Positions 15,100 to 42,840 of a stretch of DNA of 64,000 nucleotides are shown here, in pieces. Each line of letters begins with the position of its first letter. Position 1 is the first letter of the stretch. Source of the stretch: Ophiura sarsii (lineage: Eukaryota; Echinodermata; Ophiuroidea; Amphilepidida; Ophiuridae); assembly GCA_035610835.1 (NCBI GenBank), contig CM069448.1, positions 744,001-808,000 on the forward strand, read 5' to 3'. The notes below the pieces were generated by a model. The model had not been told where the DNA came from. It did not search any database and worked only from the letters and a program-made list of their open reading frames with translations. A program made the translations under genes and the position numbers.

Positions 15100-17200
15100 A
15101 TGCATAACATAACATAACATAACATAACAATGAGCATTTATATAGCGCTCTTACACATTATACAATGGTACCACAGCGCTTAACAAAATTAAAACATAAA
15201 ATTAAAAATAACAGTGTTAAACATCACTCGCACTATGACGGTGAAATAAGTGAGTTTTTAACATCTTCTTAAATTGAGTCAGTGATGAGGCATGCCTGAT
15301 TGTGATGCGGTAAATTATTCCACAAAAATGGGCCGGAGGCATAAAATCCTTTTTTGGAGATAGTGAGACGAGTTTTAGGTACAGTGAGAATCCGAGTGTC
15401 AGAGGCAGAACGAAGACCACTTCTTTTAGGTACATAAGTACTAGTAAGGTTCTTAAGATAACAAGGCGCGCCATCATTGAAACATTTATATACAATAGTC
15501 AGGATCTTGAACTCAATGCGCGTTTTAACAGGCAGCCAATGTAACTTGTGGAGAAGAGGAGTTGCATGATCACGTCTTTTAGCATTATAAATTAATATCT
15601 TTCACAGAAGATCCCTGTAAGAGAGAGTTGGAATAGTCGAGCCGCGATGTAACAAGTGCGCGTATGGCATGATGACATGTTGTTTCATCAATAAACATCC
15701 GAATACGAGAAAGATTCCTAAGGTGAAAATTCAAACTGCGACAAATGTTAGTAACATGATGAGACATGTTTAAATGGCAGTCAAATTCAACACCAAGATT
15801 GCGTACATGGGGGGACGGTCTGATCTCAATATCACCAACACGAAGTGAGATGTTGCATAGTGACTTTAAGGCTCTTGGGTTGGCTGCAATGAAAAATTCT
15901 GTTTTATCACTATTCAAGCAAAGCATATTTTGCGACATCCAAGAATTGATATCCTCAATGCACGCAGATAACATAACAAGAGCATGGTCAGCATCCCCTG
16001 ACTTATTTGGGTCAAATGAGATGTACAGTTGTGTATCGTCAGCGTAAAAATGGAACTTTATGTGTTTGTAACGTTTGATTATATCAGCAATCGGATGTGT
16101 GTAGAAAGAGAACATTTGTGGGCCAACACAAGATCCTTGAGGCAAACCGAAGTTGAGAACATGGGAGTCAGAAAACTCATTGGCAATTTTAACCTTGCAT
16201 GTGCGTCGATAGAGATACGAACGAAACCAGCTCACAACATTTCCTCTAATTCCAAAATCATTTGACAATCTGTTAGTTAGGATATCATGATCAATCGTGT
16301 CAAAAGCTGCTGAAAGGTCTAACAATACAAGAAAAATAGCACGCCGGTTGTCAATTTCGCACACAATATCACTTTTCACTTTTAATAATGCTGTCTCCGT
16401 GCTGTGCTTGGGCCTATACGCTGACTGCATCTTCTGGCGTAGATCATTCTCACTAACATGAATATTTACACGTGACAAAGCAGCTTTTTCAATAATTTTG
16501 CTTAAAAATGCTGTGTTGGATACTGGACGGTAGTTCTTAAGCATGTTCTTGTCTAATGATGGTTTCTTTAAGAGTGGTGTGACAATGGCATCCTTAATTG
16601 CCGTAGGAAAAGTGCCTATGGATAGTGAGGTATTAATAATGGAAACAAATGCCGGAAGAAGAGTTTGAATATTATCTTTAAGGAGCCAGGTAGGGATTGG
16701 ATCAAGTCCACAAGATTTGTTCGGGGATCTTTTAATGAGCGTCAAGATTTCATCCTCATGGGCTGGAGTAAACTCATTCATTTCCGCAACAAGCGTGTTA
16801 ATCGTGGGTAATGAAGCAGGTTGGCGGGGTAACTGTGAGTCATTAACACCTTTGATCTTATGCCTTATCTTTACAATTTTCTCACTGAAGAATCTACTGA
16901 AGTTATCACTCAGGGTTTTCATAGATTCAGCATAGGGAAGTGATGTTGTATTCCGGTTGAGAAGGGTGTTGATGGTTCTGAAGATTGTTTTTGTGTCAGC
17001 TGTAGCAAGCTTATCCGTGTAGTACTTAGCCTTTTCTGATCTGCACATTTTAGAGAAAGAGTGAACGTAATCCAGATAAAATTTATGATCATTCGGATCA
17101 CCTGATCTCCTCCACTTACGCTCTAGTTTCCGACGCTGTCTGCGGGCTCTATGGATTTCATCAGTGTACCATTTGGGTACACTGATTGCATTCAGTGTTA
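15100..17200 (-). mobile_element. 5'-truncated CR1/L2-type LINE
   Basis: On the minus strand this is a reverse-transcriptase ORF, a C-terminal domain in shifted frames, a short 3' UTR with GCGCTATATAAATG, and a terminal microsatellite of TGTTA units (15101-15127). The GCGCTATATAAATG-plus-microsatellite tail is typical of L2/CR1-like elements and recurs at 56655-56712. The endonuclease is missing, so the insertion is 5' truncated near 17200. Confidence 0.88.
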
Positions 17201-17210
17201 TCATAAACAA
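15217..17210 (-). pseudogene. LINE reverse transcriptase, broken
   Basis: A 541-codon frame from 17210 to 15585 encodes a non-LTR reverse transcriptase. It shows the pre-finger motif NKSCGLDPIPTWLLK, NYRPVSNTAFLSKIIEK, the catalytic LLDLSAAFDTIDH, GLPQGSCVGPQMF and the YADD box. It stops after SSVKDINL. The C-terminal domain resumes in another frame (RDHATPLLHKLHWLPVKTRI onward), and the expected linker is missing, so the break is a deletion. A further frame change near 15290 leads to SLTQFKKMLKTHLF, and the last stop is at 15217. The segment upstream of SVPKWYTDEIH does not look like LINE protein. It is inactive as it stands. Confidence 0.88.
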
Positions 17211-27677: not shown

Positions 27678-30600
27678 TCAATCCATTGCTGCTAATAAAT
27701 TCTTTCTTACTCGGTGAAGTGCATAACAAAGTCTTCTGGAAGTACTTTCTATAGCATCCAGTGTGTGCCCTTCCGGGGGATATGGGAATAATCCCACAGC
27801 GGTGCAGTCTAGTATCAGTTGGTGAAGAGAAGTATTTCCACCTTGTAGAGTTTCCCAACTGAATTCAGGATATCCTTCCTTTACTGCCTGCTTAAGATGT
27901 TGTAGGTGGTATTCCCTTGTAGGTTCCAGGGTTTCACACTGAGTGAGGAAGTGCTGCAGATTCTCTGCATCTTTCTTGCATAATAGACAAGTGCTGTCTG
28001 TTCCTGGATAATACTTGGCCTTGCTTGCTTGGAGGGTGTAAGTCCCTGTCAGGAGGCGTGCCTTCACACCGGCCCTCTGGACATCCCTGGTATTTGAAGT
28101 GACAGTGGACCATAAGTTGTGTGGTTTCATACCCTGCATGCATTCCCAATTTATAAGTTTCAGAGTGGTCTTTGATCGTGCTCCTTCTCTGAGTCTGGAG
28201 TTCCAGTACTCGTTAACAGCATTGGAAACAGTGTCCTTCCATGCATTCTTAGTGGGAGGAAAGGCAAGTATGGTGTGTCCATCTGGGAGACCATATTTGG
28301 ACAGGTCTGCATTAACCTGGATAAACCAGCTATTAGATGTGTTGTCTTTTACCGCCAGTTGCCTGTATGCCAAATCTCTCTCAATGCAATCGTGCCTTGC
28401 TATTGCTCCAAACATTGTGAGGCGCCGCTTATCCAAAATCCCCATCATTGGAAGTTGACCAATCAAAAGGTATACAGCTTCATCAGCAACTCTGTCTGGA
28501 AGGTGTTGCACTCTTTTCAGCATCTTCTTGTGGTATTTTTCAAGCTTGTTAAGGTCAGATAGTTTGATCATCACAGTCTCCAGGCCATGTACATATCTAG
28601 GGATGATGAAAGTAGTGATCAGTTTTGCTGAGACTAAGGGGTTAACACCACTATTGCCATGTAAGCCAGCACCCATCAATGCATAGGTTGTTCTTCTTGC
28701 AAGTTTAATACGCTCTTCAACAAGTTGTGTATGACCTTTCTCTGTAGAACGTAGAATTCCAAGATGTGTACAATCTTCCGTGATCTTTAGTGTTTCTTCA
28801 CCAAGCATGAATGGCTGAGCATCTTTCCAGACTTGGATAGGTGTCTTGGAGTTGTAGATAAGGACGTTGCTCTTTTCTGAGTTAATGATATAACGATGTT
28901 CAGCTGCATAGTTTGCTACTACTTGAAGCATGAATTGCAGGTCTGTCATGGATTCTGCTGCCACTATCACATCATCTGCACATGTTGGGCGCCCACATAG
29001 ACATTGCCGATAGTAACTCCCACGCCGGATCTTTTTAGCATTCTGAGGAGGTCATTGATGAATATTTTGTAGCAATCCGTAGAAAGCACACTCCCCTGCC
29101 TTACTCCTTGCTTGAGGTTGAACGATCTTGATGTTTCTCCAATCCATTTCACTTTACTTGTAGCATTCTGGTACATTTCCTGCACCAACATCCATAGCGT
29201 TGGATCCAAACCTGAGTAGTACAACTTGTGTAGCATTGCGTTTTGGTAAACCACATCAAAGGCCTTCCTGGCGTCAAGAGATGCCACAAAAAGCTCACTT
29301 CTTGTGTCCTGAGCTTCTGCTAAGTTAAATTAATAGTGCAGCAAAAGTTGATGATGTGCCACTTGTGAATCCTCTCTGGAGTTTACTTTGCCCTTGTTGT
29401 AGTTGTGTTCGCAGGCGTTTTTGTACGACGTGCTCAAGGATTTTCCCAATAATGGAGGTTAGTGTTATACCACGATAGTTGTTAGGGATTTTAGCGTCTT
29501 TGCCCTTCTTAGGGATTGGAATCACCCGACCTTCTTTGAAAGTAGATGGGATATATGTGAGACCAAGAATGACGTTGAAGAGATCCGTCAGGTAAGGGGC
29601 TAATGTTACTCCACCGTGCATAATGTGCTCTGCGGATATGCCCTCATGATCAGCTGTTTTCCTTTTGTTGAGCTTTAAGATTGCCTTAGTGACTTCCTCT
29701 AAAGAGATTTGTGTAGGCTGAAGACCTTCCATAGATTTGATGAGGCTTTGGATAGTCTGAACACCTTCGTCAATTATGTCTTTGAATTTCTCGTCAAAAC
29801 CTTCATGAGCCTGAGGAGTTGCAAGACCCTCAAAGTGGTCGGCCCATGCCGCTCTAATGTCCTCCGTCTCGACCAGGTGCACACCGTGTACAACTAGCTC
29901 TGCTTGGGATACCTTTGAAGTTTTTGAATGCTTCCTTATCATAGAAAAGAAGAGTTGAGTGTCTCCTGTCGATGACTGCATGATTTTGTTATAATCGTCA
30001 ATTCTATCTAGGGCATGTTGATTTCTTTGAGCACAGCGCAGTTTATTCTTGGCAGTCTTAATATCATCCTTCAGTCTAGACTTGGTAGGCTCTGACGAGG
30101 TCTGCTTATACTGCCAGTGTATTTCTTTGCTTTCCTTAGCTAGCTTAGTGATCAAAGGACTCCATAATTTGTGTTTGTGACCATTCTGTTTCAGCGTCTT
30201 GGTGGGAATACTTGCAGCTGAAGCTTTCTTAATAGCGTCAGTGATGCATGATAGCATATCATCAGGAGAGTTCATAATTTGCCCCTCTTGATACACGTCT
30301 GTTCCTTCAGTGAGTTTCTGTTGCAGGACTCTGTTATATTTTGCTGCATCAATGTTTTCCCATATATGTTTGGAAACAGTCGGATTCCCGTGGGGCTCCT
30401 TTGGCGGTGGTGTGTAAAAATTTGTTGTAATCGCCACGATGGGTGCATGGTCAGATGTATTGGATGGGTAGTTCTTCATCAAGTAGACCTTCTGTATCAT
30501 GTCTTTTTGCCATTCAAGTCGCATTATATGATCAATCATAGACTCCCCCATACCTCCTCGGTGAACGAAAGAATTTCCATGGTAGTATATCGCAGGCACT

Positions 30601-31143
30601 TTTAAGCCTCTGTCTTCACAGAAGCTGATGAGGGTACGATCACGTGAGTCTCGTGGTGTAACAGGACATGCGTTGAGATCTCCACAAACTATGATGGTGA
30701 AGTTATCGCAATATCTGCCAATGATGATCCAGAGGGTCTCTAGGTAGTGTAGATATTCGGCACTGGAGTGTTTCTGTCCTCGGCACGGCATGTAGACTGT
30801 TATGATGCAGATATTTTCTTCATTTCCCTTAATGGTTATCACTGCAAATCGCCAGTCGCCATCGTCGCACTTGCTGACTTTACTGCTCCATACTTTAGGC
30901 CAGAAGATAGCCACACCTCCGTGCCCTCTTGGACGTCTCGTTGGGTTGATAGGGTCACCATCGTCCACACATCTGACAAAGCAATCATGGGAAGGAGACA
31001 AGTCGTGCAATAATGAAACCTCAAATCTGTAGAGCCAGTGTTCTTGAAGACAGACTATTTCATGATTCTTAAGAAGCTCAAGCAGGCAGACCATATTTGT
31101 TTTGGCATTACTGATATTTAAGGTGATGATCTTCGTTTGGCTC
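27678..31143 (-). pseudogene. LINE ORF2: AP endonuclease plus reverse transcriptase
   Basis: The endonuclease shows LNISNAKTN (catalytic Asn), VCLQEHW (Glu), CGDLNA and TSDHAPIV. The reverse transcriptase follows with NNYRGITLTSIIGKILEHVV, SLDARKAFDVVYQNAMLHKL, GVRQGSVLSTDCYKIFINDL and CADDVIVAAES. The C-terminus ends in a CLLCKKDAENLQHFLTQC zinc-knuckle-like motif. The frame is broken twice: one extra base near 29325 (ATTTAAC) stops the first frame at ALLI, and one lost base in a C run near 28990 shifts back just before CADD. The two cancel. The first ATG (31094) lies downstream of the catalytic LNISNAKTN, so translation must enter earlier, overlapping the ORF1 end. Confidence 0.9.
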
Positions 31144-33469
31144 TTACTTAGACCGACTTTGGCGTGCTCCCTGTTGTTTCCAATCTTTCCATCTGTCTGC
31201 GAGGAGGCTTGTCGACTCTAAAAAAGACCGCTCGGTGTGGATCTCTGGCTTCATTGGTGTAACAACTCCGTCTGAGTCAGACACAATACTTTCATCATGG
31301 TCAATATATATGACATTAATACTTGAGTCAATAACCTCTGCGTCTGTATGTGTTAAGTTATTGCTCTGCATTTTACAGCCCTTTATCTGGTCATTTGCTG
31401 TATGTTGCCTGTCATCAAGTAATGTAGTTGTAGATAGATTTGGCTTGCTCCCTCTGTTATGGCTAGGTGAGTTACTGCTGTGCATTTTACAGTCATTCTT
31501 TAGGTCACTTGCTAGAGGTTGTCTCTGAATATGCTTCTGGATGTCAGGTTGGCTACCGTCAGAAAATGGTGTTGCAGATTGATTTTGCTCACTCCCTATG
31601 CTATGGTTGGGTGAGTTATTGCTCTGCATTTTACAGTCATTTACCTCGTCATTTGTAGTACGTTGTTTGTGAATGATTTTCTGATTGTTGCGTTGGTTGT
31701 CATCAGACATTGGTGTTACAGATTGACTTTGCACACTCCCTCTGTTATGGATTGAAGAGTTGGTATTCTGCATATTACAGCCATTTTCCCATCTGCGTTG
31801 CTTTCTATTAGACCGGCAGTTTTGGATTGAAAATTGTGGGAATGGCGGCATGGCAGAGTTATGCATAGGCATGTTGCGTGTACCAAGATGACTATTCCAA
31901 GGTCCATATCCAGGCATCACATGTGGTTGGAATGGCATGTTCACTGGCATGTTGTTGTTTGGGAACATCCCCTGACTGCTCATATGATGAAGAGGAAGAC
32001 CACTATACTGGTTGTACACCTGTGGGCTCTGGTATGGATAAAAGTGCATTTGCGGTTGCCCTATGTTTAGTGAGTTTTGATGGGGACTCGTATGAAATTG
32101 AGGATGAACTGGGTTACCTGTCTGACTATTACATGTAGCTTTAAACTGCTCGAATTTCATCTCAAGGATAGACATTCTGCTTTCGGACATTTGTCGCTCC
32201 ATCGCATTCAAGCGCTCTTGCAGCTCCAGAATGGGTTTAATTCCAAGGGCAGTGGTTGAGACTGCGTCATTGTTGCTCCTTATTTCTGTGATTTCTGTTT
32301 CATTAGGTCTACTCACGTGTGACTTTAGAGTCTTGTTTTCGGCATCGTACCTTCTGATTTGTTCTTCCATTTTTGCAATTTGGGCCTTTGCAGTTGCAGT
32401 CTGGTTTCCTTTCAGCGCAACTTCCTTTTCCCTGGCAGTAAGGTTTTTCTCCCATTGTTTTAATTGTTTTTCTTTGTCTTTAGTGATTTGTTCCTTAGAT
32501 TGGATTTTTGTGAGCACGTCGAGGTTGCTGGATGACACTTTTTTATCAGCGTAGCCATATCTCACCTGGGGTGCACGCAAGTTCACTGGTGCATTCAAGC
32601 CAGTCATAACAATAGGCACAGCTGTCTGTTTTTGTTTTACCTTATCTGTAGTAGCTGCAGCTAGATTGGAGGACCTAGTAACACATTCTCTTGAGTTCTG
32701 CTTCACCTCCAAAGCGGCTAGATCTGTAGGTGAGATCTGAGGCAGCGTTGAAAGCTTCACAACGGAAAAATCATGTATTTTCATGTTTACCTGGGAATCG
32801 TTGATGGTTGTAACCACTGCTTCACTGCCTGCAGATTCCTTATCAGCCAGGACACTCTTCTCAGATTCACGTGGAGTTGAACACAAGATTTGCAGCTGGT
32901 TTGATTTGGGAGCTCCATCAGATTCATTACCTGCAGTTGTATTGTCTGACCATGTGATTTCCCGCCCTGGCATGGATGTTGTATGCTTCACATCGTTACG
33001 GTTTTGAATATACATATTTACTTGGGTGTCATTGGGGGGTGAACTGTCAGCTTTATTACCTGCAGTAGCTTCGCCTGACCTCAGAATTTCTCGCCCCGGC
33101 ATGGATGTTACGTGCTGGGAAAGCTGGCCCTGTGTAGACGATGTCGGGTGCTTCATGAACTTGGTATTCTGGTCCACTTTCTTTGGTCTTTGGTTACTAT
33201 CGATAGCGTTGATTGCATCTGCAATGGTGCTCTTCAGGTTGTCGCTTGTGTCTGGATTAAGGGAAGTAAGACTGCTACGAGCAATATCAGAAATGTGATT
33301 AAAGACTTTGTTTTGAAAGCCAGTTTTGTTTGGCCCATTGACCAGCATTCGTGACGTGGTTGGATACAAGTTTAAGGCATACATGAGCCTACCTTTGCTG
33401 CCATTGCCTTTACGATGGAATATCTGGAGGGTTTGAGTTATGCTAATGCCATCTTTTTCTTGTATGTTG
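31144..33469 (-). CDS. LINE ORF1, 3' part
   Basis: The larger part of ORF1, about 775 codons after the insertion scar. From the N-terminus it has a conserved-looking block (IFHRKGNGSKGRLMYALNLY), a long Ser/Thr/Asn-rich region, a predicted coiled coil (about 32150-32500; LTAREKEVALKGNQTATAKA, then LELQERLNAMERQMSESRM), a Pro/Met/His-rich stretch, and four degenerate repeats starting CNMQ/CKMQ/CKMH (31360-31800). It probably binds RNA in the retrotransposition particle, as coiled-coil ORF1 proteins do. The open frame extends to 33534 only because it reads into the end of the inserted transposon. Confidence 0.8.
31358..31800 (-). repeat. In-frame repeat array in LINE ORF1
   Basis: Four degenerate units of about 118-148 bp carry TGCATTTTACAG(T/C)C on the plus strand (CKMQ on the protein) at about 31370, 31485, 31625 and 31775, followed by NNSP-HNRGS-QNQSxTxxSD-like text. 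Expansion is in frame. Confidence 0.8.
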
Positions 33470-33478
33470 TTGGTTTCA
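33470..33478. other. Target-site duplication, left copy
   Basis: TTGGTTTCA lies immediately outside the left end of the three-gene transposon. It is identical to 42324-42332. Confidence 0.93.
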
Positions 33479-33567
33479 TTCCTAGCAGGTGGCCGAATTC
33501 CCCAGCCCTGGCAAGTTTGCCAGTGTACTGGCAAATATGGCCGCTAAGTGGCCATATTTGCCAGTAT
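33479..33567. repeat. Left terminal inverted repeat and subterminal palindrome
   Basis: The terminal repeat occupies the first 22 bp or so. It is followed by a perfect palindrome at 33529-33567: ACTGGCAAATATGGCC, a 7-nt loop, GGCCATATTTGCCAGT. The right end has a single GGCAAACATGGCC at the matching place, so this motif may be the transposase-binding site. Confidence 0.85.
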
Positions 33568-33569
33568 CT

Positions 33570-34120
33570 ACAGTTAATCCAAAGTTAGCGCTTCCACACA
33601 AAAAATGGCATGTTCTACCTTTCATATATCAATTGTTTAACTCAATACCTAAATATTTCGTGTCGCTTCAAAAAAATTCTTGGTTGCGTTTTGCCAGAAA
33701 AATGATGACATTTCAGTCATTTTGTGGCAAATACACATTTTTCCTGTATTTACAGTTAATCCAAAAGTAGCGCTCTCACACACAAAATGGCATCTAATAT
33801 CCTTCCTATATCGATATCTGAACTCCATACCAAAATATTTAGTGTCGCTTGAAAAAAATTGGGTTGCATTTTACCAGAAAAATGAGGCCATTTCAGTCAT
33901 TTTTGGCCAAAATATTTGTAATGTTTGTAATATCATTTTCAAACTTTCATTGAAAGTGCTCTAACATTAACAAAAGGGAAATCCTCAATACCTAAACATT
34001 TTGTGAAACTTCCAAAAAGTATTGTATGTTGGAAAATAAATTAAATGTCAGTCATTTTGGGCCTCCAAAAATCAAGATTTCATTGAAAGTTTATTTTAAA
34101 AATTTGATAGAAATGGGACT
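33570..34120. repeat. Three diverged 182-bp subterminal repeats
   Basis: Copies begin at 33570, 33752 and about 33935. Shared words are ACAGTTAATCCAAA, CACAAAATGGCAT, ATACC(T)AAATATTT, GTGTCGCTT and TTTCAGTCATTTT. They occupy only the left end of the transposon. The third is much degraded. Confidence 0.8.
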
Positions 34121-34422
34121 TACATACACACATAAAAGCATGTTATTATGCTGTTACAACAGCAAAAAATTAAAAACATAAATACTTGGATTATCATAGT
34201 GATTTTGTAATATCAGAGAAAAATATAAAAGCATCAAAGTGTATTACTCCTGCAATGTATGGTCATTATACTACATACATGTATAATTTGCAGCTGAGAA
34301 TGATTCAATGTATAGATATGCAAATTCTTGATTGACCAGTATGTCAAGAATGTATTACCATGTGAATACAATGTTCAGCATCTAATGTGTTGCACAGTAG
34401 AAATAGCCAGTGTGTTTTAAAC

Positions 34423-34587
34423 ATGGACACTGTCAACAAGAACTACTATGAGGCTCTGTCTCAAAGCATATCAACGACAAGGAGAGCAAATAAACGCCTA
34501 GGAGACAAAAGAAGAGTCAAATACATCAAAGACCCAAAAGAAAGGAACAGAACGTTCCATAGAAGATGTCAAAACCTCATTATATCA
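34423..34587 (+). CDS. MADS/PHD-like protein, exon 1
   Basis: The first 55 codons start at an ATG in good context (AACATGG) and end in phase 0 at the donor GTAAGT. They encode a basic N-terminus and the first half of a MADS-box-like domain: KRRVKYIKDPKERNRTFHRR then CQNLI. The I-K-x-I, R-x-x-TF-x-x-R and L spacing matches SRF-type DNA-binding helices. The domain is completed in exon 2 (35125-35562). The total product is 200 aa. It is the left-most gene of the transposon and convergent with the transposase gene. I infer that it binds element DNA or regulates transcription; this is untested. Confidence 0.75.
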
Positions 34588-35124
34588 GTAAGTTTTAGTA
34601 TTGTATCCATTCTTATTAATAATTAATGGTAAAAATACTGTAAGAGTCCCAATACCCGGGGTGGGGTGGGGGGGGGGGGGCTTAGTGGATATCAGGTCAC
34701 AGGGATGTGCCGCCAAGTAGGGTCCCATTTTTCACATGGCTGGTAAATGAGTGACACTTTTTCATAGCCATTTTTAGTAAATGTATGGGTCTAAAATCCT
34801 TAAATTTTCAGTCTTTCACAGATTATCTAGTAGACTAGTAAAATAGGTCAAATATGTAGGAAAATGATGGGTCATTGGTAAATATGATGGGTCTATTTTC
34901 CTCCAGCACATCCCTACAAAAAAGTAGAGTGACCCCATCCCCTGGTCCGGATATCTACTATTATTAACAAATGTATCAAACCAATTGGAATTAAATCAAA
35001 ATCAAGGTTGTAAGAAATCAGACAAGGGTTAGTCATTGATTTAACTTTCAGTTGCACTTATCATTTTAACACTACTGTTAACTACTTGCCTAAATGATGT
35101 GTCTCTTTCTATTTTATCTTGAAG
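34588..35124 (+). other. Intron containing repeat family P, copy 2
   Basis: Begins GTAAGT and ends CTTGAAG. Its 34655-34965 segment is the reverse complement of the family P repeat at 21905-22230, including a G run at 34668-34680. The host repeat therefore inserted into the transposon intron, or the transposon spread it. Confidence 0.75.
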
Positions 35125-35562
35125 GCTATGGAACTCGAGGTTCAGACCCATTGCAAGGCCGACATCAAGATGATACCAAATCATCCATCAGCCAAACCTG
35201 AGCAGTATGAATCAAAAAACACACAGCCTCAGGAGCCGAGTACAAGTGAGGAAACTGCTGAAGAGGTGGACAATCATGTCAATGGACCACCACCACCGCC
35301 TCCAATATCCCCGGAAAGGCGTCGTCGGGTTCCCAAGACTGCTGTCCACAACACAAGAAAACAAAAGAACATGTGCCGTGTCTGTGGAGACCATGAGGAA
35401 ACCTCCTTTTGGATTGGATGCTCGTATAAAACCCCCAAAGGGAAGAAACAGACCTGCCAATATTGGGTGCATCAAAAATGCATTGGCCTATGTTTCAGCT
35501 CTGAGGACCAATTGAAAACGGTTCCTTACTTCTGCCCAAAGCATATTGTGGGACATAAATAA
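35125..35562 (+). CDS. MADS/PHD-like protein, exon 2
   Basis: Starts in phase 0 after the acceptor TTGAAG with AMELEVQTHCKADIKMI, the second half of the MADS-like domain (A-x-EL ... A-x-I-x-x-I). After a Pro-rich linker (GPPPPPPISPERRRR) comes a PHD-like zinc finger at residues 138-196: MCRVC, then SFWIGC, QTCQYWVHQKCIG and YFCPKHI, giving a C4-H-C3-type arrangement with a Trp before the His. It ends at a TAA after GHK. A MADS-type DNA-binding fold fused to a PHD-like finger is unusual; MADS is otherwise known from SRF/MEF2 and plant factors. The exon pair is intact with no frameshift. Confidence 0.78.
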   Translation, partial: AMELEVQTHCKADIKMIPNHPSAKPEQYESKNTQPQEPSTSEETAEEVDNHVNGPPPPPPISPERRRRVPKTAVHNTRKQKNMCRVCGDHEETSFWIGCSYKTPKGKKQTCQYWVHQKCIGLCFSSEDQLKTVPYFCPKHIVGHK

Positions 35563-36753
35563 CATTGAAAAAACCAAAACCAAATCATCACGAACACTAA
35601 AAACTTCAAAGGTTAAAGAAATCAGCTGTTACTGAATGTATTTCAAAAGAACTTACACTTGATAAAATAAAAAGTATTTTAAAGTGACAAAGACATAACA
35701 AAAACCTGTGCAAAGGGCCCAGCCACCACATTTTAAAAAAAAAATGTTTCAAATTTATTTCTGGATCATTTTAGAGACGTTTACAAATTTCCAATTTTAA
35801 ATTTCAAACAAAATCAAAATCAAAATTTCTAAAGTTGTTAAAAATTCCACAAATATTCAGGAAAATGTGACAGTGTGAAAACAATTTAAAAAATAAAAAA
35901 TACTGACTAACCAACCGTACCCAAGAGGTTGGTGTGTCCATAGAACAGGGTTTTTTATGCCTTTCTCTACAATGATCATGGTTGGATATTGACATTACAA
36001 AACTCACCTTCTTTATATTAGGATACTTAATGTGTAATCACGGCAAAAGGGTTCACTTGTCGGCAAAAGGGTTCAGTTGTCAGTAAAATGTATTTTTAGA
36101 TATTGATGGATTTGGCATGGAAGAACAAAGAAAATATAGACAATCACAATTTACAGTATTTTTTCTTCATAAAAGCAACAAGCAGTATCCAAAACAAACA
36201 GAAATGTGTCATTTTGAGCTTTCAAAAAGCTCCTTTTGGTTGAGAGAAAGACAACTGGACCATTTCGCCGTCACAGTACACAAATACAAAATGATTCATC
36301 ACATGTAGTTTGACTGTTTATGATATTAAAAAAGATGCACAATGCTTTGTCAATGATGAGATGAAGCATTTGATAGTTTATTCCAATTAAAATTGATCTA
36401 AAGTGTTCATTATTCAAGATGTTGAGTATTTTTGTACAAAGAATATAATTTATTCAATTTAATCCCAGAACAAAAGACCAAAAACAATTTTTTGATTGTC
36501 CTCTTCTGACTGACCTTAATTTGTGAAAACTGATAAAAATAAAATTACTGACCCTAATTTATTTTTTTAAATCTTCTTGGTACAGAATGTTGCCTTTCAG
36601 AAATACACTAAAATAGTGTGGTCATGTTTTAAAACATGAATGACTTCCTTTAATCAAAGTTTTGGTTGGGATCTAAGGACAATCAATCAATTGTTGCCAA
36701 GTGGTGTTGCTTTATTGAAGTTTTACAAATACTCACCAATGTTGCACAATGGT
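35563..36753. other. Convergent 3' intergenic region in the transposon
   Basis: AT-rich and non-coding, between the stops of the MADS/PHD-like gene (+) and the transposase gene (-). 35690-35960 resembles repeat family S (see 18380-18580). Confidence 0.5.
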
Positions 36754-39648
36754 TTATTCGTCATCAGAGTCTTCAATTTCGATATCTTGATCTTCTTCCA
36801 AGCTAAGAAGGCTCTCAACTGTTTCTAAATATTGTAAATATGTTGCTCTTGAAGCACCTTTGAGTTCAATAGAAGCATTTTCTTGTAACATGCGGCCAGT
36901 TGACTCATCCTGAAAATCCTGGCATAGGGCATTTATTTTTTGTCCAATATCCTTAATTGTGAAGTTCTTCGCTTTCCTCTCATCACTGAGGAATACATGA
37001 TATTTATCCAGAGAATTATCCCCTTCTTTGTACTTTTGATAATTGTTACATGCTGTCATGTGAAAGTTGACAAGATCTGGATGCAATGGTTCTTTTGTTA
37101 TAGAACACAGAGGCCTCTCCTCACATGGTTCCCTCAACATGCCTGATGAGCGTATTACCCGTCTCACCATTTGAATTTCAAGTTCAAACTTGAATGGTGA
37201 TTTTGTGTCTTCGTTTGGATCTTTAAGTCCAATTCTGTTAAAAACAGCATCCCTGTTTTGTTTCAGTACCTTGGTACATCGGCTTGACCTTTGCCACTTG
37301 GAAAAAGATGGTATACCCCCAGGCAAGTTAGACTTTAAGTGTCTGTTTTCTTTTTCAGTAACATAGTCACCACCTTCGCCACATGTGGGGTCACCAGAAG
37401 TAGAGAAGGCCTCATTTTGTTTGATGTATTCTTGTATTGGAGTTGGGGCAATTGCCCTTATAAGGCTGTCCTTGAATAACAATTTCTGATAGATAAAATG
37501 CTTTCCATCATACATAATGGGCACTACTTTTTGACGGCCAGCTAAAGCATATTCTGAATTATTATGTCGTATCCCACCTCTAAAACACTGCAACCCAAGG
37601 AAGTAATTGAACACTAAATCATATATCAAATTGTAGTTTGGGTTTATAACCTGCTGTTCCTTCCAGCTTAGAAAGTTTTCAGTTGACTCTGGTGAAGATC
37701 CCTCTTTCACACAGTGCTCCAAATAGACATGCATAAGTTCAAGGGCAAATGCATTGGTAAATATACAGAATATTTGCCAGCTGATGTGATGGTTACTGCA
37801 CTTTATAATAAAGTCTTGTGCTCTTTTGCTTTTAAATCCAAGAGCTATTGCAATGTGGCGTAGAAAAATATGATCACACAACGAAAAAATTGCACGGAGC
37901 AAATTGATTTCAATGTGTCCATTGCCAGGCACTAGTAAAATTGAATCAAACAATCGTGTGTAAGTCACTTCATCAACAAATGGGTGATTAGTGCTAACAT
38001 GCAAATCAAATGGAGTTGCCTTCAAATCAATTTCTTGTTTACATACAGAGCATATAACAGTGTTATTGATGATAGTATCAGCCAGATTATATGGAACCCC
38101 ATCAAATCCTATCCTTACCCAGTCTCGGGTTACTCCAATCCCAGCTTGTTGGATAATGTTGGAAAGTACTTCTTTCACAGAAGCTTTAGAATTAGGATTT
38201 ACACCGACAATTTCACCCATTTTCACCGATGGGGGCTCAGGAGGGTGCTGGCTGGGAATATCTCCATATAATCCATTACGGTCTCGTTGGGATGATGGAT
38301 TATTCCCACATGACGGACATTTACATTCAAGTTTTACGTATGCAGAACAACATTTGGGGCACATGATCTTTTCCGGGCTTGCGACTTTCAGACCAGCACT
38401 ATAATACACATGATCTTTTAGAGACCCTGATACAGAGTCAATATCAGTTTCATCAATGACTTGTTCCATCAATTGTTGTTGATATTGAAATCGGTAAGGC
38501 CGGAAAATGTCAGCATTCAAATCTTGCTCCAGTTTCCCAACTTTGTGTGATGTAATGCAATTTGCAATGTTATTGTTATCAGGCAACCAATTAGATGGTT
38601 TTAAATCTGGTTGGTTTTGAATATTTGTTGGAGGATTGCTCTGTATAAATACAACATTTGTTGCGACATTCACTGGTGTCGTGCCCCCCTCTCGTACTCT
38701 CGTTGTTTTGCCCACTTTTTGTGTATTGTCTGCAAATATATCTACATCATTGTCATAGCAGTAATTGAAGATACTTGAAGGTTTTTTTAATGCTTCTGAA
38801 TAAGTGATTTTACTTCCACTATATGTGGACGCCCCATCTATAGATACAGCTGTCGAACTACCAGTAATTGAATATTTCAGAAGTCCCTGACTGAATGAAA
38901 AAGGTCCAACAAATTTTTCATTGCGAACAAAATAAAGCTGCTCAAATAATATACAAAAAGAGTTCAACTTTTTCTTGGTTATTGATCCATCACTCAAACT
39001 TGTAGATGTGGCACCTTCTAAGAATGCAACTAATGTAGGGGGTCTATTCTTTACAAATGCTAAGCAGTCAAGCTGAGAAAGATGTTCCAAATCTTTGTGT
39101 TCACTGTTTAACTTTTGAGCATCTTGATATATCTCTTTGTTAAGTGTATGCCCAAGAGTCCATGCTAATTTGTTCAGCTCATCTAACGAAAGCTCTCCAG
39201 TTTCAATTGACTTTATTACATCTTGAACTTTACTTGTATTTTCCTTGTCATTACATGGACATGATGAACATGTACTATCAATTCCATCATTACCATCATT
39301 ATGGGGTTCTGATTTACTACACTGTTCGACCTCCTCATCAATTGTCACAACTTTTTCCGATCTTTTATTTGTCTTGTTGCCGTCTATATTAGATTTGGCA
39401 TAATTAATACACTGATTGCATACCCATAAAGCTCGTAATTTCATATAGTTCTTTTCTTGGAGCCACTGTAAGTGTCTTTTTTTGAAGACTTTACCACTTG
39501 TCCTATACAATCTTGGGGGATCCACTGAGCATATAGATTCATGAATCTTACATGAACATTGTCGAGGCTGGGCTGGTTGGCCTACCTTGCCCCTTCCTGA
39601 ATTGCTCCTCAAGTTATGCTTGGGTGTTACACACTTCGTTTTTGCCAT
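36754..39648 (-). CDS. Candidate transposase, 964 aa, intact
   Basis: A single uninterrupted frame. The N-terminus is cysteine-rich (CSCKIHESIC ... VCNQC). A zinc ribbon CPKC-x13-CPSC lies near residues 430-450, and a C2H2-like CSVC ... H ... H near 533-555. Three conserved-looking acidic sites follow: IGFDGVPYN (D516), VPGNGHIEINL (H578, E580) and GGDYVTEKENRHLKSN (E765/E767), an arrangement compatible with an RNase-H-like transposase core. The C-terminus is acidic (EEDQDIEIEDSDDE). I recall similar long proteins as uncharacterised repeats in cnidarian, mollusc and deuterostome genomes (compare DUF6589-type proteins), but cannot verify this here. It is divergent from the HIRAN-like gene and shares a spacer of about 490 bp. 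Confidence 0.8.
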   Translation of the reverse strand: MAKTKCVTPKHNLRSNSGRGKVGQPAQPRQCSCKIHESICSVDPPRLYRTSGKVFKKRHLQWLQEKNYMKLRALWVCNQCINYAKSNIDGNKTNKRSEKVVTIDEEVEQCSKSEPHNDGNDGIDSTCSSCPCNDKENTSKVQDVIKSIETGELSLDELNKLAWTLGHTLNKEIYQDAQKLNSEHKDLEHLSQLDCLAFVKNRPPTLVAFLEGATSTSLSDGSITKKKLNSFCILFEQLYFVRNEKFVGPFSFSQGLLKYSITGSSTAVSIDGASTYSGSKITYSEALKKPSSIFNYCYDNDVDIFADNTQKVGKTTRVREGGTTPVNVATNVVFIQSNPPTNIQNQPDLKPSNWLPDNNNIANCITSHKVGKLEQDLNADIFRPYRFQYQQQLMEQVIDETDIDSVSGSLKDHVYYSAGLKVASPEKIMCPKCCSAYVKLECKCPSCGNNPSSQRDRNGLYGDIPSQHPPEPPSVKMGEIVGVNPNSKASVKEVLSNIIQQAGIGVTRDWVRIGFDGVPYNLADTIINNTVICSVCKQEIDLKATPFDLHVSTNHPFVDEVTYTRLFDSILLVPGNGHIEINLLRAIFSLCDHIFLRHIAIALGFKSKRAQDFIIKCSNHHISWQIFCIFTNAFALELMHVYLEHCVKEGSSPESTENFLSWKEQQVINPNYNLIYDLVFNYFLGLQCFRGGIRHNNSEYALAGRQKVVPIMYDGKHFIYQKLLFKDSLIRAIAPTPIQEYIKQNEAFSTSGDPTCGEGGDYVTEKENRHLKSNLPGGIPSFSKWQRSSRCTKVLKQNRDAVFNRIGLKDPNEDTKSPFKFELEIQMVRRVIRSSGMLREPCEERPLCSITKEPLHPDLVNFHMTACNNYQKYKEGDNSLDKYHVFLSDERKAKNFTIKDIGQKINALCQDFQDESTGRMLQENASIELKGASRATYLQYLETVESLLSLEEDQDIEIEDSDDE

Positions 39649-40135
39649 TTGAATACACTATCAGTAAATAGTGTGGCTAGTCCTGTTATGACCCAGCTGA
39701 TCAAGGCCACTAGCTATTGCATCATACAAACATATTAGTACATGTACATGTACTGATGACCAGGCCTTTGATTCAAGAAAGGTACATGTACCTATATTCA
39801 ATGAACATTCATGAACAATAGCAACTTTAAAATACCGGTGAACTGAACTAGTAAGATTTCCTATCTATACCATCTAAACAAGATACCTGATAAAAAAGCC
39901 CATGCATTGAATTATAATTTGCATAATAAAAGCATAACCATGCCAGGTGTATGGGATTAGCAAGATTGCCCAATAGTTACATACATAAATGCCACATGGC
40001 CAGTCAGTTGGTAACCTTGTATGACACTGCACACATCAATGCTCCAATCTGCACAGTGCACACACTGATCCAACATCTTCTACCATCACATTTTGACTAC
40101 ATTCAAATATAATTTTTAAAGCGTTGCATCTCAGT
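39649..40135. promoter_or_regulatory. Divergent promoter region of the transposon
   Basis: The only spacer between the start codons of the candidate transposase (-) and the HIRAN-like gene (+), so both promoters must lie here. It contains palindromic TACATGTACATGTAC near 39742. No clear TATA box was identified. Confidence 0.5.
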
Positions 40136-40239
40136 ATGGCTTCAAACATGGTTGGTGTAGATATGGTAAAAGAATTCCAGCAGAGAAATGGGTGGGGTGC
40201 AGAATCTGTTCCCCTCTCATTTTATTCTACCATCAAAGG
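40136..40239 (+). CDS. HIRAN-like protein, exon 1
   Basis: Starts at ATGGCTTCAAAC and ends in phase 2 (AAAGG) at the donor GTATGT. It encodes MASNMVGVDMVKEFQQRNGW then FYSTIKG. The last Gly codon is completed by exon 2. A second in-frame ATG lies four codons on. Confidence 0.65.
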
Positions 40240-40243
40240 GTAT

Positions 40244-40400
40244 GTATACAGCAATATCCTCAAATAGGTCTTACAGACTTACACACGGAATAAAGAATAA
40301 GGCAGCTATCATTTTTACACTGTAAAACAACTGCAAAACAATTGCTGCCTTGTGCTTTATTCCGTATGTAAGACCTATATGAGGATATTGCCATGTATAC
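40244..40400. mobile_element. Palindromic MITE in the HIRAN-gene intron
   Basis: GTATACAGCAATATCCTC is mirrored by GAGGATATTGCCATGTATAC, with inner arms GGTCTTACAGACTTACACACGG / CCGTATGTAAGACC. It begins within five bases of the 5' splice donor. It is a hairpin of about 157 bp inside an intron of a gene that itself sits in a transposon. Confidence 0.85.
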
Positions 40401-40496
40401 TACATCTACATGTAGGTGAGATAATGTTGGTTCATAACCAAAAGCTAAGGAGATGATTTAATTTTAACTAATCACAATTTTTTGGTTTACATACAG

Positions 40497-40905
40497 GTAC
40501 CACATTTACCACCAGCGACCCCTTGTAGGAAGCCAATTCATTATGAAGCTTATTCCTGAACCAACAAACCCAGTGGATCGGTACGCAGTCAAAGTTGTAG
40601 CCCCTGAACTTCATGAACTACACCGGGACACATGGAATATCATCACCGCTTACGATCAACGAGTACGAGACGTAGCAGGGCAGATGCTTGGACATGTACC
40701 AAGGGGTCTTTGCAGCGTTCTTTCAATGGGCATACAATCAGGAGATTTTTTAAAAGCTATAGGGATCTACACAGGGGGGTTTACACATGGAGATGGCCCA
40801 GCGTTGAACTGTATTTACCACATAGAACTGAAGAACAACATTCCAGTGCAGCAGTATTCGGATCTCATTCGTCCATTTGTTCATGATGAAGACATTTTCT
40901 TGTAA
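40497..40905 (+). CDS. HIRAN-like protein, exon 2
   Basis: Joined in phase to 40136-40239 (total 170 aa) after the acceptor ACATACAG. The protein continues GYHIYHQRPLVGSQF, KLIPEPTNPVDRYAVKVV, MLGHVPRGLCSVLSMGIQSG and FLKAIGIYTGG. The pattern G-x2-L-x2-EP-x-NP-x-D-x2-A-x-V followed by LG(H)VPR matches the HIRAN domain, which binds single-stranded DNA 3' ends in HLTF/Rad5 helicases and also occurs alone. A stand-alone HIRAN protein in a transposon could recognise cleaved transposon or target ends; this is inference. The ORF is intact. Confidence 0.78.
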
Positions 40906-41740
40906 CTACTAAAGACCAATTTTAACACAAAAAATAACAATAACCCTAACACACATCACCCACCACCAAACAAACATCCCCTCCACAAGTTATGAAATGA
41001 ATCATATTAGAAGCTGTTCCCTGCACCCAATATCCAGAAAATGAGCAAAAAACCAAATACAGTACGCCCCCCCCCCCCCCCTTTGAGAAAAAACAACAAA
41101 GAATAAAATAAAGATGTTTCTCAGCACCCATTATCCAGAACAGAAAACAGGACCCCCACCCCCCCCCCCCCCCCCCCCCGGATAAAGACAATACCCCCTA
41201 CCCGAAAAAACAAACAGCCCACCCACACCTAAAGAAAAAGACAATCCCCACAGCCCACCCCAATAAAAACAACAGAAAAACAAACAACAAAAAGAAACAA
41301 ACAAGCCAAGAAGCACAACATTGTCCCAAAATCTACTAGAATACCCACAAGACCCCACCCCCATGACACTTAAAACAATCAAAGAAAAGAAAAACATTGA
41401 TAAATAAACAAGTAAATGTTTAAAAAATAAGTCACCAAACAGTAAATACATAAATAAATGAATGAATAAATAAATAAAGTTAATATAGACAAAACTAAAA
41501 AATACACAAACTGAACCAGAAAACAACAATAAAACACCTTAAAAAACCCCATTAAAACAACATAATCACACCCAAAACAAAAATATATCAACACAAAAAC
41601 ACCCCCAAAAACAAAAATCCACACTCATTACAATAAATATATCAAAGTAATTCTTCAAAAATCCCAAAAATCCCAAAAAGAAAAAGAAAAAGAGAGAGAA
41701 CAAATAAAAGTTAGCCCATCACTATTTTAGGATATCCACA
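40906..41740. repeat. A/C-rich, G/T-poor tract with poly-C runs
   Basis: Over some 800 bp the plus strand is made almost entirely of A and C, with C runs at about 41067-41082 and 41159-41179. Several long minus-strand frames here (for example 41131-41529) are artefacts of the missing stop codons in G/T-rich sequence. It forms the non-coding right part of the three-gene transposon. Confidence 0.85.
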
Positions 41741-42323
41741 AACTTTTTTCCTCAAAGCTGATTGGTTGTCCCTGACCCCTGCATAACTGGTTGTCATGAA
41801 ACCCAGCATATCATTGGCCACATACTCCCCTTAATAAACATCAATATTCATACACAGTTCAATAGGGATGAGAGTATACACTACACCTATTTCTATCACA
41901 AAAATCATTATGGTACCGTTGTGCCCATCACTACTAAAACTTTTTTACAATAGACAAAACTTTTGCTTGATGCTGAGTGGATGTCTCGGACACACCCCTC
42001 ACACACCCCTTGTATTTAATTGGCTACAAGTACCTATGACATCATTTTGGCTAGTGCCCCAGATATAGTGCTGGGAGATATCAAGCTTCCCAACACCAAA
42101 ATCACCAACTGCCCTTCATCTCTCATTGTCTCTTCAACAAACATCATAATTTGCTTAATTCAAACAGGAAATCAAACTTAAACCTTTCCCCAGCAGATTT
42201 TTATTCCATTGGAACAATTATTTTGGGTTTCAAACATGAAAAATAGTGAATTTATTACGTATTTTTTCTTGGTGGCCATGTTTGCCCACTATCTCAGGGG
42301 CCGAATTTGGCCACCTGATAGGA
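41741..42323. other. Right subterminal region and TIR of the transposon
   Basis: Non-coding. The terminal inverted repeat occupies about 42265-42323 (GGCCATGTTTGCCC ... GGCCACCTGATAGGA). Nothing matching the left 182-bp repeats is present. Confidence 0.75.
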
Positions 42324-42332
42324 TTGGTTTCA
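42324..42332. other. Target-site duplication, right copy
   Basis: TTGGTTTCA, identical to 33470-33478. It encodes part of ETN in the interrupted ORF1 on the minus strand. Confidence 0.93.
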
Positions 42333-42679
42333 AGAAAAACCTTATTTTGTTCTTCTTCATGTCTGAAGTATTCGAACACAGCCGTCCTGAAGGCTTCATA
42401 GTATAGGGTGTTGAATTCGTAGACCAGGTTGTTACCTTTAGTAAAGCATTTCACATTAAGCCTATCACATGCATTGTATTTATTAACGAGAGCTTTTTCA
42501 CGGTCGAGAGCAAATCCTCTCCTCAGCTGAGTGTTAGGTTTGTCATTTTCACCTTGCTCATAGTTGTGAGCATTATTTAAAGTGTTAAGGTTACGCTCAT
42601 TTATGTCATACTCAGGGGTTTCATCATAGTTGCACAGTTGTATACTGCTACTTGATGCAGGTGCTTTCCTCTTCGTCAT
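42324..42679 (-). CDS. LINE ORF1, 5' part
   Basis: From the likely start MTKRKAPASSSS (ATG at 42679; an open frame runs up to 42796) through VKCFTKGNNLVYEFNTLYYE and KVFLET to the insertion point, about 118 codons. Beyond 42324 the frame runs into transposon sequence and is meaningless. With the 3' part (33469-31144) it gives an ORF1 of about 893 aa. The uninterrupted frame on both sides of the scar shows that the LINE copy was intact in ORF1 when the DNA transposon landed. Confidence 0.85.
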
Positions 42680-42840
42680 GATGGTATCAAGTAGGGTGAA
42701 CTCAGTCTTAGAAATAAGGGTAAGATAACTTACAGTTTTTGGCTGCAGAAACAGCTTTTTGTCTTTACGTAGAAGCTCAATTACTTGTGTCTTCACGGAG
42801 TTGGAGAACAGGTCAGGATGCTGACCACGTCAGGCGCCTG
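42680..42840 (-). other. Possible LINE 5' UTR
   Basis: Sequence upstream of ORF1. The true 5' end of the retrotransposon was not recognised. Confidence 0.35.

Follow-up and report, generated by a model that had tools for sequence, protein, structure and literature searches.

The 64,000-nucleotide stretch of the Ophiura sarsii genome analysed here (contig CM069448.1, positions 744,001 to 808,000; hereafter the window) harbours a transposon of 8,850 bp (33477..42326) with CA...TG inverted repeats and a 4-bp target-site duplication (TSD). We consider it highly probable that this element is moved, likely by cut-and-paste, by a predicted DDE transposase of 964 amino acids (aa), probably helped by a conserved MADS-PHD-like partner protein, and that it likely forms its own superfamily. 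Its way of working is inferred from its anatomy: inverted repeats and a fixed 4-bp TSD, as for DDE cut-and-paste transposons, were found in 21/21 copies and likewise in two further, distantly related families of the same genome (families 2 and 3). Its likely placement in a superfamily of its own within the DDE transposons comes from sequence comparison, since in the libraries searched no family is close enough to take the element in. As regards Sola, Academ, Ginger, Novosib, Zator, IS3EU and Zisupton, the comparison covered Pfam, in which the transposase gave no significant match. The original prediction of an autonomous-looking cut-and-paste element with a candidate transposase and no nameable family is supported.

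The 1.57-Gb genome was searched with the left 222 bases of the element, which gave at least 40 near-full-length matches including the window (40 of the 1,088 first-look candidates scored), the true number being probably higher. The ends were set by comparing the window with 20 copies, the highest-scoring of the 39 other near-full-length matches. The two flanks of a copy were identical over exactly 4 bp in 21/21 cases and over 5 bp or more in none, while the left flank of one copy matched the right flank of another in 10/420 control pairs. In the window, the duplicated GTTT occupies 33473..33476 and 42327..42330, and the left terminal repeat CATTCCTAGCAGGTGGCC (33477..33494, plus strand) agrees at 16/18 positions with the right one, CAATCCTATCAGGTGGCC (42309..42326, minus strand), confirming the inverted termini initially proposed. 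The outer CA on the left and ATTG on the right belong to the element because they were present in all 21 copies; 20 of them start with CATTCCTAG, the exception (L022) having lost one base just inside the edge. Around the insertion site the copies lean towards T..ANNT..A, with A at the first TSD base (16/21), T at the fourth (14/21), T three bases before the TSD (15/21) and A three bases after it (11/21). Two subterminal direct repeats, 82% identical, follow the left end (33557..33731 and 33739..33910, plus strand).

These results displace the ends at 33479 and 42323 and the 9-bp duplication of the original prediction. Ends elsewhere were among the outcomes that it had named as refuting, but its core idea survives. 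The 9-mer TTGGTTTCA, found on both sides in the window, is composed of the right-end TTG, GTTT and the left-end CA, the far-flank bases matching by chance. It had also been read as a hint of a Mutator-like element, since Mutator duplications are of 8 to 11 bp, mostly 9 bp. The flanks agree beyond 4 bp in 0/21 copies, which refutes this reading and leaves it practically no probability. The precise insertion into ORF1 (first open reading frame) of a long interspersed nuclear element (LINE) was borne out: once 33477-42330 (the insert and one duplication) is removed, a 943-codon frame is open across the junction, its downstream part at 31144..33472 and its upstream part at 42331..42829 (minus strand). 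This restored frame, previously taken as proof of the ends, could not separate the 9-bp from the 4-bp reading, because the same 8,854 bp are removed both ways.

The gene of the predicted transposase is a single uninterrupted frame on the minus strand (36754..39648). Its product matched no Pfam family significantly (best E-value 0.048), and the 14 aligned members gave no significant Pfam match beyond scattered zinc-ribbon matches (best 0.004). Homologues amounted to 13 of 6,498 candidates, the one with a species name coming from Patiria miniata (44% identical), and to 22 of 7,990 with the alignment as query. Residue conservation was read from the 12 rows kept of the 14 in the alignment. For the protein we predict an RNase H-like core with D307, D516 and E765 as catalytic residues, a zinc ribbon, a C2H2-type finger and a helical insertion domain that resembles its counterparts in P, hAT, Transib and RAG1. 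The predicted catalytic residues D307 (codon 38728..38730, in strand 303-309) and D516 (38101..38103) are invariant, as are the zinc-ribbon cysteines C430-C447 (38308..38361) and, in the 12 rows, E765 (37354..37356), which follows the helical domain. On the grounds of the fold, E765 is the preferred candidate for the third catalytic residue over the alternative E580, in a region where model confidence is only ~50-73. In the predicted models, D307, D516 and E765/E580 come with a strand order matching an RNase H-like core. The core model (predicted local distance difference test, 82; predicted template modelling score, 0.84) had only DDE transposases among the top eight fold matches listed, with scores of 10.1 and 10.0 for the P element, 7.5-8.0 for Hermes and 7.5 for ISCth4.

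The best fold match, the P element transposase of Drosophila (PDB 6pe2/6p5a), shares 10% identity with the protein; P elements are not known to have a partner gene. The top ranks of P and Hermes, and a conserved H578 at the site of the C/DxxH motif of these families (PMC9587614), would fit an extreme member of the P, hAT, Kolobok or MuDR group with an altered TSD length. Such a membership appears unlikely: the motif, C/DxxH in hAT, reads GxxH here, duplications measure 4 bp instead of the ~8 bp of P and of hAT (Hermes), no Pfam model of those families matches, and no P-family or THAP match was found in the window transposase or the 14 aligned members. Kolobok resembles the element in its TSD length (4 bp), in having zinc fingers close to the DDE core and in the accessory genes of some lineages, which carry extra nuclease genes, but it inserts at TTAA (PMC9587614), a sequence seen in 0/24 TSDs.

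The 4-bp duplications and CA-starting ends also evoke a divergent Chapaev (CMC) transposon, for which 3-4-bp TSDs and a signature ending in LH and H(4)H are described (PMC4079192). Residues spaced as C(2)C (C533xxC536) and as H(4)H (H550xxxxH555) are invariant here and follow the second predicted catalytic aspartate. Chapaev termini are nevertheless given as invariably 5'-CAC...GTG-3' (PMC4079192), while those observed here are CAT/CAA in the family of the window and CAG in both families 2 and 3, and the four residues make up, in the model, a compact finger of 23 residues that precedes the helical domain; we give a Chapaev affiliation only a slim chance. Transib, ProtoRAG and RAG1-RAG2 differ by their 5-bp TSD (PMC8355894), the transposase core showed no sequence match to RAG1 in PDB and, in contrast to RAG1-RAG2, the partner has a MADS-like part. 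Dada inserts into small RNA genes and has TSDs of 6 to 7 bp, whereas the window insertion lies in a LINE with a 4-bp TSD; no Rfam match was found in the window. The element was not filed under Mutator, P, hAT, Kolobok, Dada, Transib or Chapaev because each fails at least one tested hallmark, that of Mutator being a TSD length unlike the 4 bp of the 21/21 copies.

Academ has TSDs of 3-4 bp and Sola of 4 bp, lengths which would suit a superfamily already named in Repbase (these two or another with 4-bp TSDs), and the Repbase table of superfamilies includes several further candidates. Weighing lightly against this are the absence of a Pfam name for the 964-aa protein, the lack of any mention of the HIRAN domain in the top-ranked open-licence papers on MADS-box and transposon, and of any pairing of DUF6589, a Pfam family discussed below, with a transposon in the open-licence literature. 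We judge it improbable that the element belongs to such a superfamily, and favour a superfamily of its own.

The three intact genes initially proposed, for a MADS-PHD, a 964-aa and a HIRAN protein, were confirmed, and their domain assignments hold up in Pfam scans, though below curated cut-offs. The MADS-PHD gene (plus strand) consists of exon 1 (34423..34587, donor GTAAGT at 34588) and exon 2 (35125..35562), which carries the PHD finger, the MADS-like part spanning the junction; its spliced 200-aa product matches SRF-TF/MADS at 4.6e-4 and PHD at 1.9e-4. Its homologues (2/15 candidates) are from Mytilus edulis and M. galloprovincialis (36-38% identity), the first matching both MADS (1.8e-5) and PHD (3e-4) and the second PHD alone, all below the Pfam cut-offs. 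The HIRAN gene (plus strand; exons 40136..40239 and 40497..40905) encodes a 170-aa product matching HIRAN at 1.1e-4, also below the cut-off. Its intron contains an inverted repeat of ~140 bp resembling a small transposon (40251-40391), which is missing from sister deletion derivatives of the element that keep the donor site and a later intron stretch.

A translated genome search with the 964-aa protein, in which 47 of 209 candidates were scored, gave at least 48 matches. Besides the intact window copy they include a decayed one on C14 (L029), in four pieces with identities of 87-97%, a pair of near-identical loci at 31%, a further locus at 38-49%, and fragments. In L029, transposase and MADS-PHD occur together (E 4e-81); a stretch interrupting this copy (L029:5712-7678) has frames that read like a LINE reverse transcriptase. 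Family 2 was delimited by comparing its two copies (L030+L033 and L031+L034; 7,434 and 7,437 bp, 99.6% identical), with ends CAGTCGGGACCAACCGCTC (CAGTCGGGACCAACC ends) and TSDs TCCT/TCCT and CTGG/CTGG. Its frame of 1,062 codons shows 29% identity to the transposase over 841 columns, and a MADS-PHD-like gene lies on the opposite strand in divergent orientation (tblastn E 5e-12, no significant Pfam match); HIRAN had no match at E <= 1. Just outside one family 2 copy (L031:8169-9996, plus strand), cysteine-rich, zinc-finger-like frames may belong to another mobile element. Family 3 (L032, 496-7378) has ends CAGTTCGGCGGA, the TSD GTAT/GTAT, a broken transposase together with a MADS-PHD gene (tblastn E 3e-18) convergent with it, as in the window, and spliced at the same intron position (MADS 1.4e-4, PHD 0.043), with no HIRAN match at E <= 0.01. 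With a 4-bp TSD required, the scan gives this end pair 16/18 matching positions and the runner-up 13; without this rule 40 pairs reach 15/18, many of them shifts of the same repeat and some unrelated. Transposase and MADS-PHD are thus present in 3/3 families with delimited ends and HIRAN in 1/3, that of the window, so that the three-gene set does not stand as a unit; other copies lacking flanking genes, which the original prediction had held to speak against it, do exist in families 2 and 3 as regards HIRAN, with MADS-PHD kept. Weaker relatives were seen on C3, C9, C11, C12, C14 and C1.

The family of the window has moved recently: 16 of the 20 copies are deletion derivatives lying at many different places, mutually 98.8-99.97% identical and each with its own TSD (the four copies longer than 3.4 kb were excluded from this comparison). 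They likely derive from a sister element carrying transposase and HIRAN genes and spread recently, because the starts of both genes are retained (6/6 tested, including HIRAN exon 1). Among the translated-search matches listed, 30 cover only residues 1-40 of the transposase, fitting such derivatives.

In the proposed mechanism, the transposase would pair both ends, make a 4-bp staggered insertion at the mildly palindromic target T..ANNT..A, and also serve the short copies in trans. We would expect the MADS-PHD protein to contact DNA through its MADS part and histone tails through its PHD finger; it could either guide integration or control the expression of the element. HIRAN handles 3' ends of DNA, as in HLTF, and the HIRAN protein, seen only in the family of the window, would handle free 3' ends.

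Regarding the surroundings of the element, the ORF2 pieces of the host LINE carry endonuclease and reverse transcriptase matches, this ORF2 being split between 28949 and 29325. Two LINE reverse transcriptases are found in the window (15588-17204 and 27681-31094, minus strand).

At L035:3459-6250 (G000:C10:61742958-61745749, minus strand) lies a distant, broken version of the transposase core with a RAG1 N-terminal domain (RAG1_imp_bd) upstream. Two core pieces in different frames were recognised at this locus (profile E 3e-37 and 7e-56, three pieces searched). The piece directly upstream matches RAG1_imp_bd at 5.4e-12 and RAG1 in PDB at 0.0043; it gave no match to the transposase profile. Its strand and reading frame continue into the core, interrupted by an insert of 370 bp that has inverted ends and by a single stop. 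Neither ends nor MADS-PHD were found within the 9 kb of this locus. Judging from this single broken locus, the RAG1-like part and the core likely formed one gene. Outside RAG1, the RAG1 N-terminal domain is reported in the excerpted account only from the stand-alone element N-RAG-TP (PMC8355894). The locus also matches DUF6589 (PF20231) weakly (L035:3459-4304, minus strand; E 0.008, below the Pfam cut-off) over the conserved GDGHxEMN stretch, while the 964-aa protein of the window has no match to it. Pfam lists the function of DUF6589 as unknown; its members may be related transposases. A broader scenario, which we put forward tentatively and regard as rather doubtful, is that animal transposons with two genes (DDE transposase and MADS-PHD chromatin partner) make up a superfamily apart, similar to RAG1-RAG2 in build but of independent origin, and that one of its branches, with a RAG1-type N-terminal domain at the start of its transposase, supplied RAG1 with its N-terminus.

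It is rare for a new superfamily of DNA transposons to come to light in animals, and this element, being recent and having open genes, can be tested directly. The L035 locus places a RAG1 N-terminal domain on the transposase core of this group, so that genome comparison can now address where the RAG1 N-terminus came from. If the proposed reading is true, the element would provide, next to RAG1-RAG2, a second independent pair of a transposase and a histone-reading partner.

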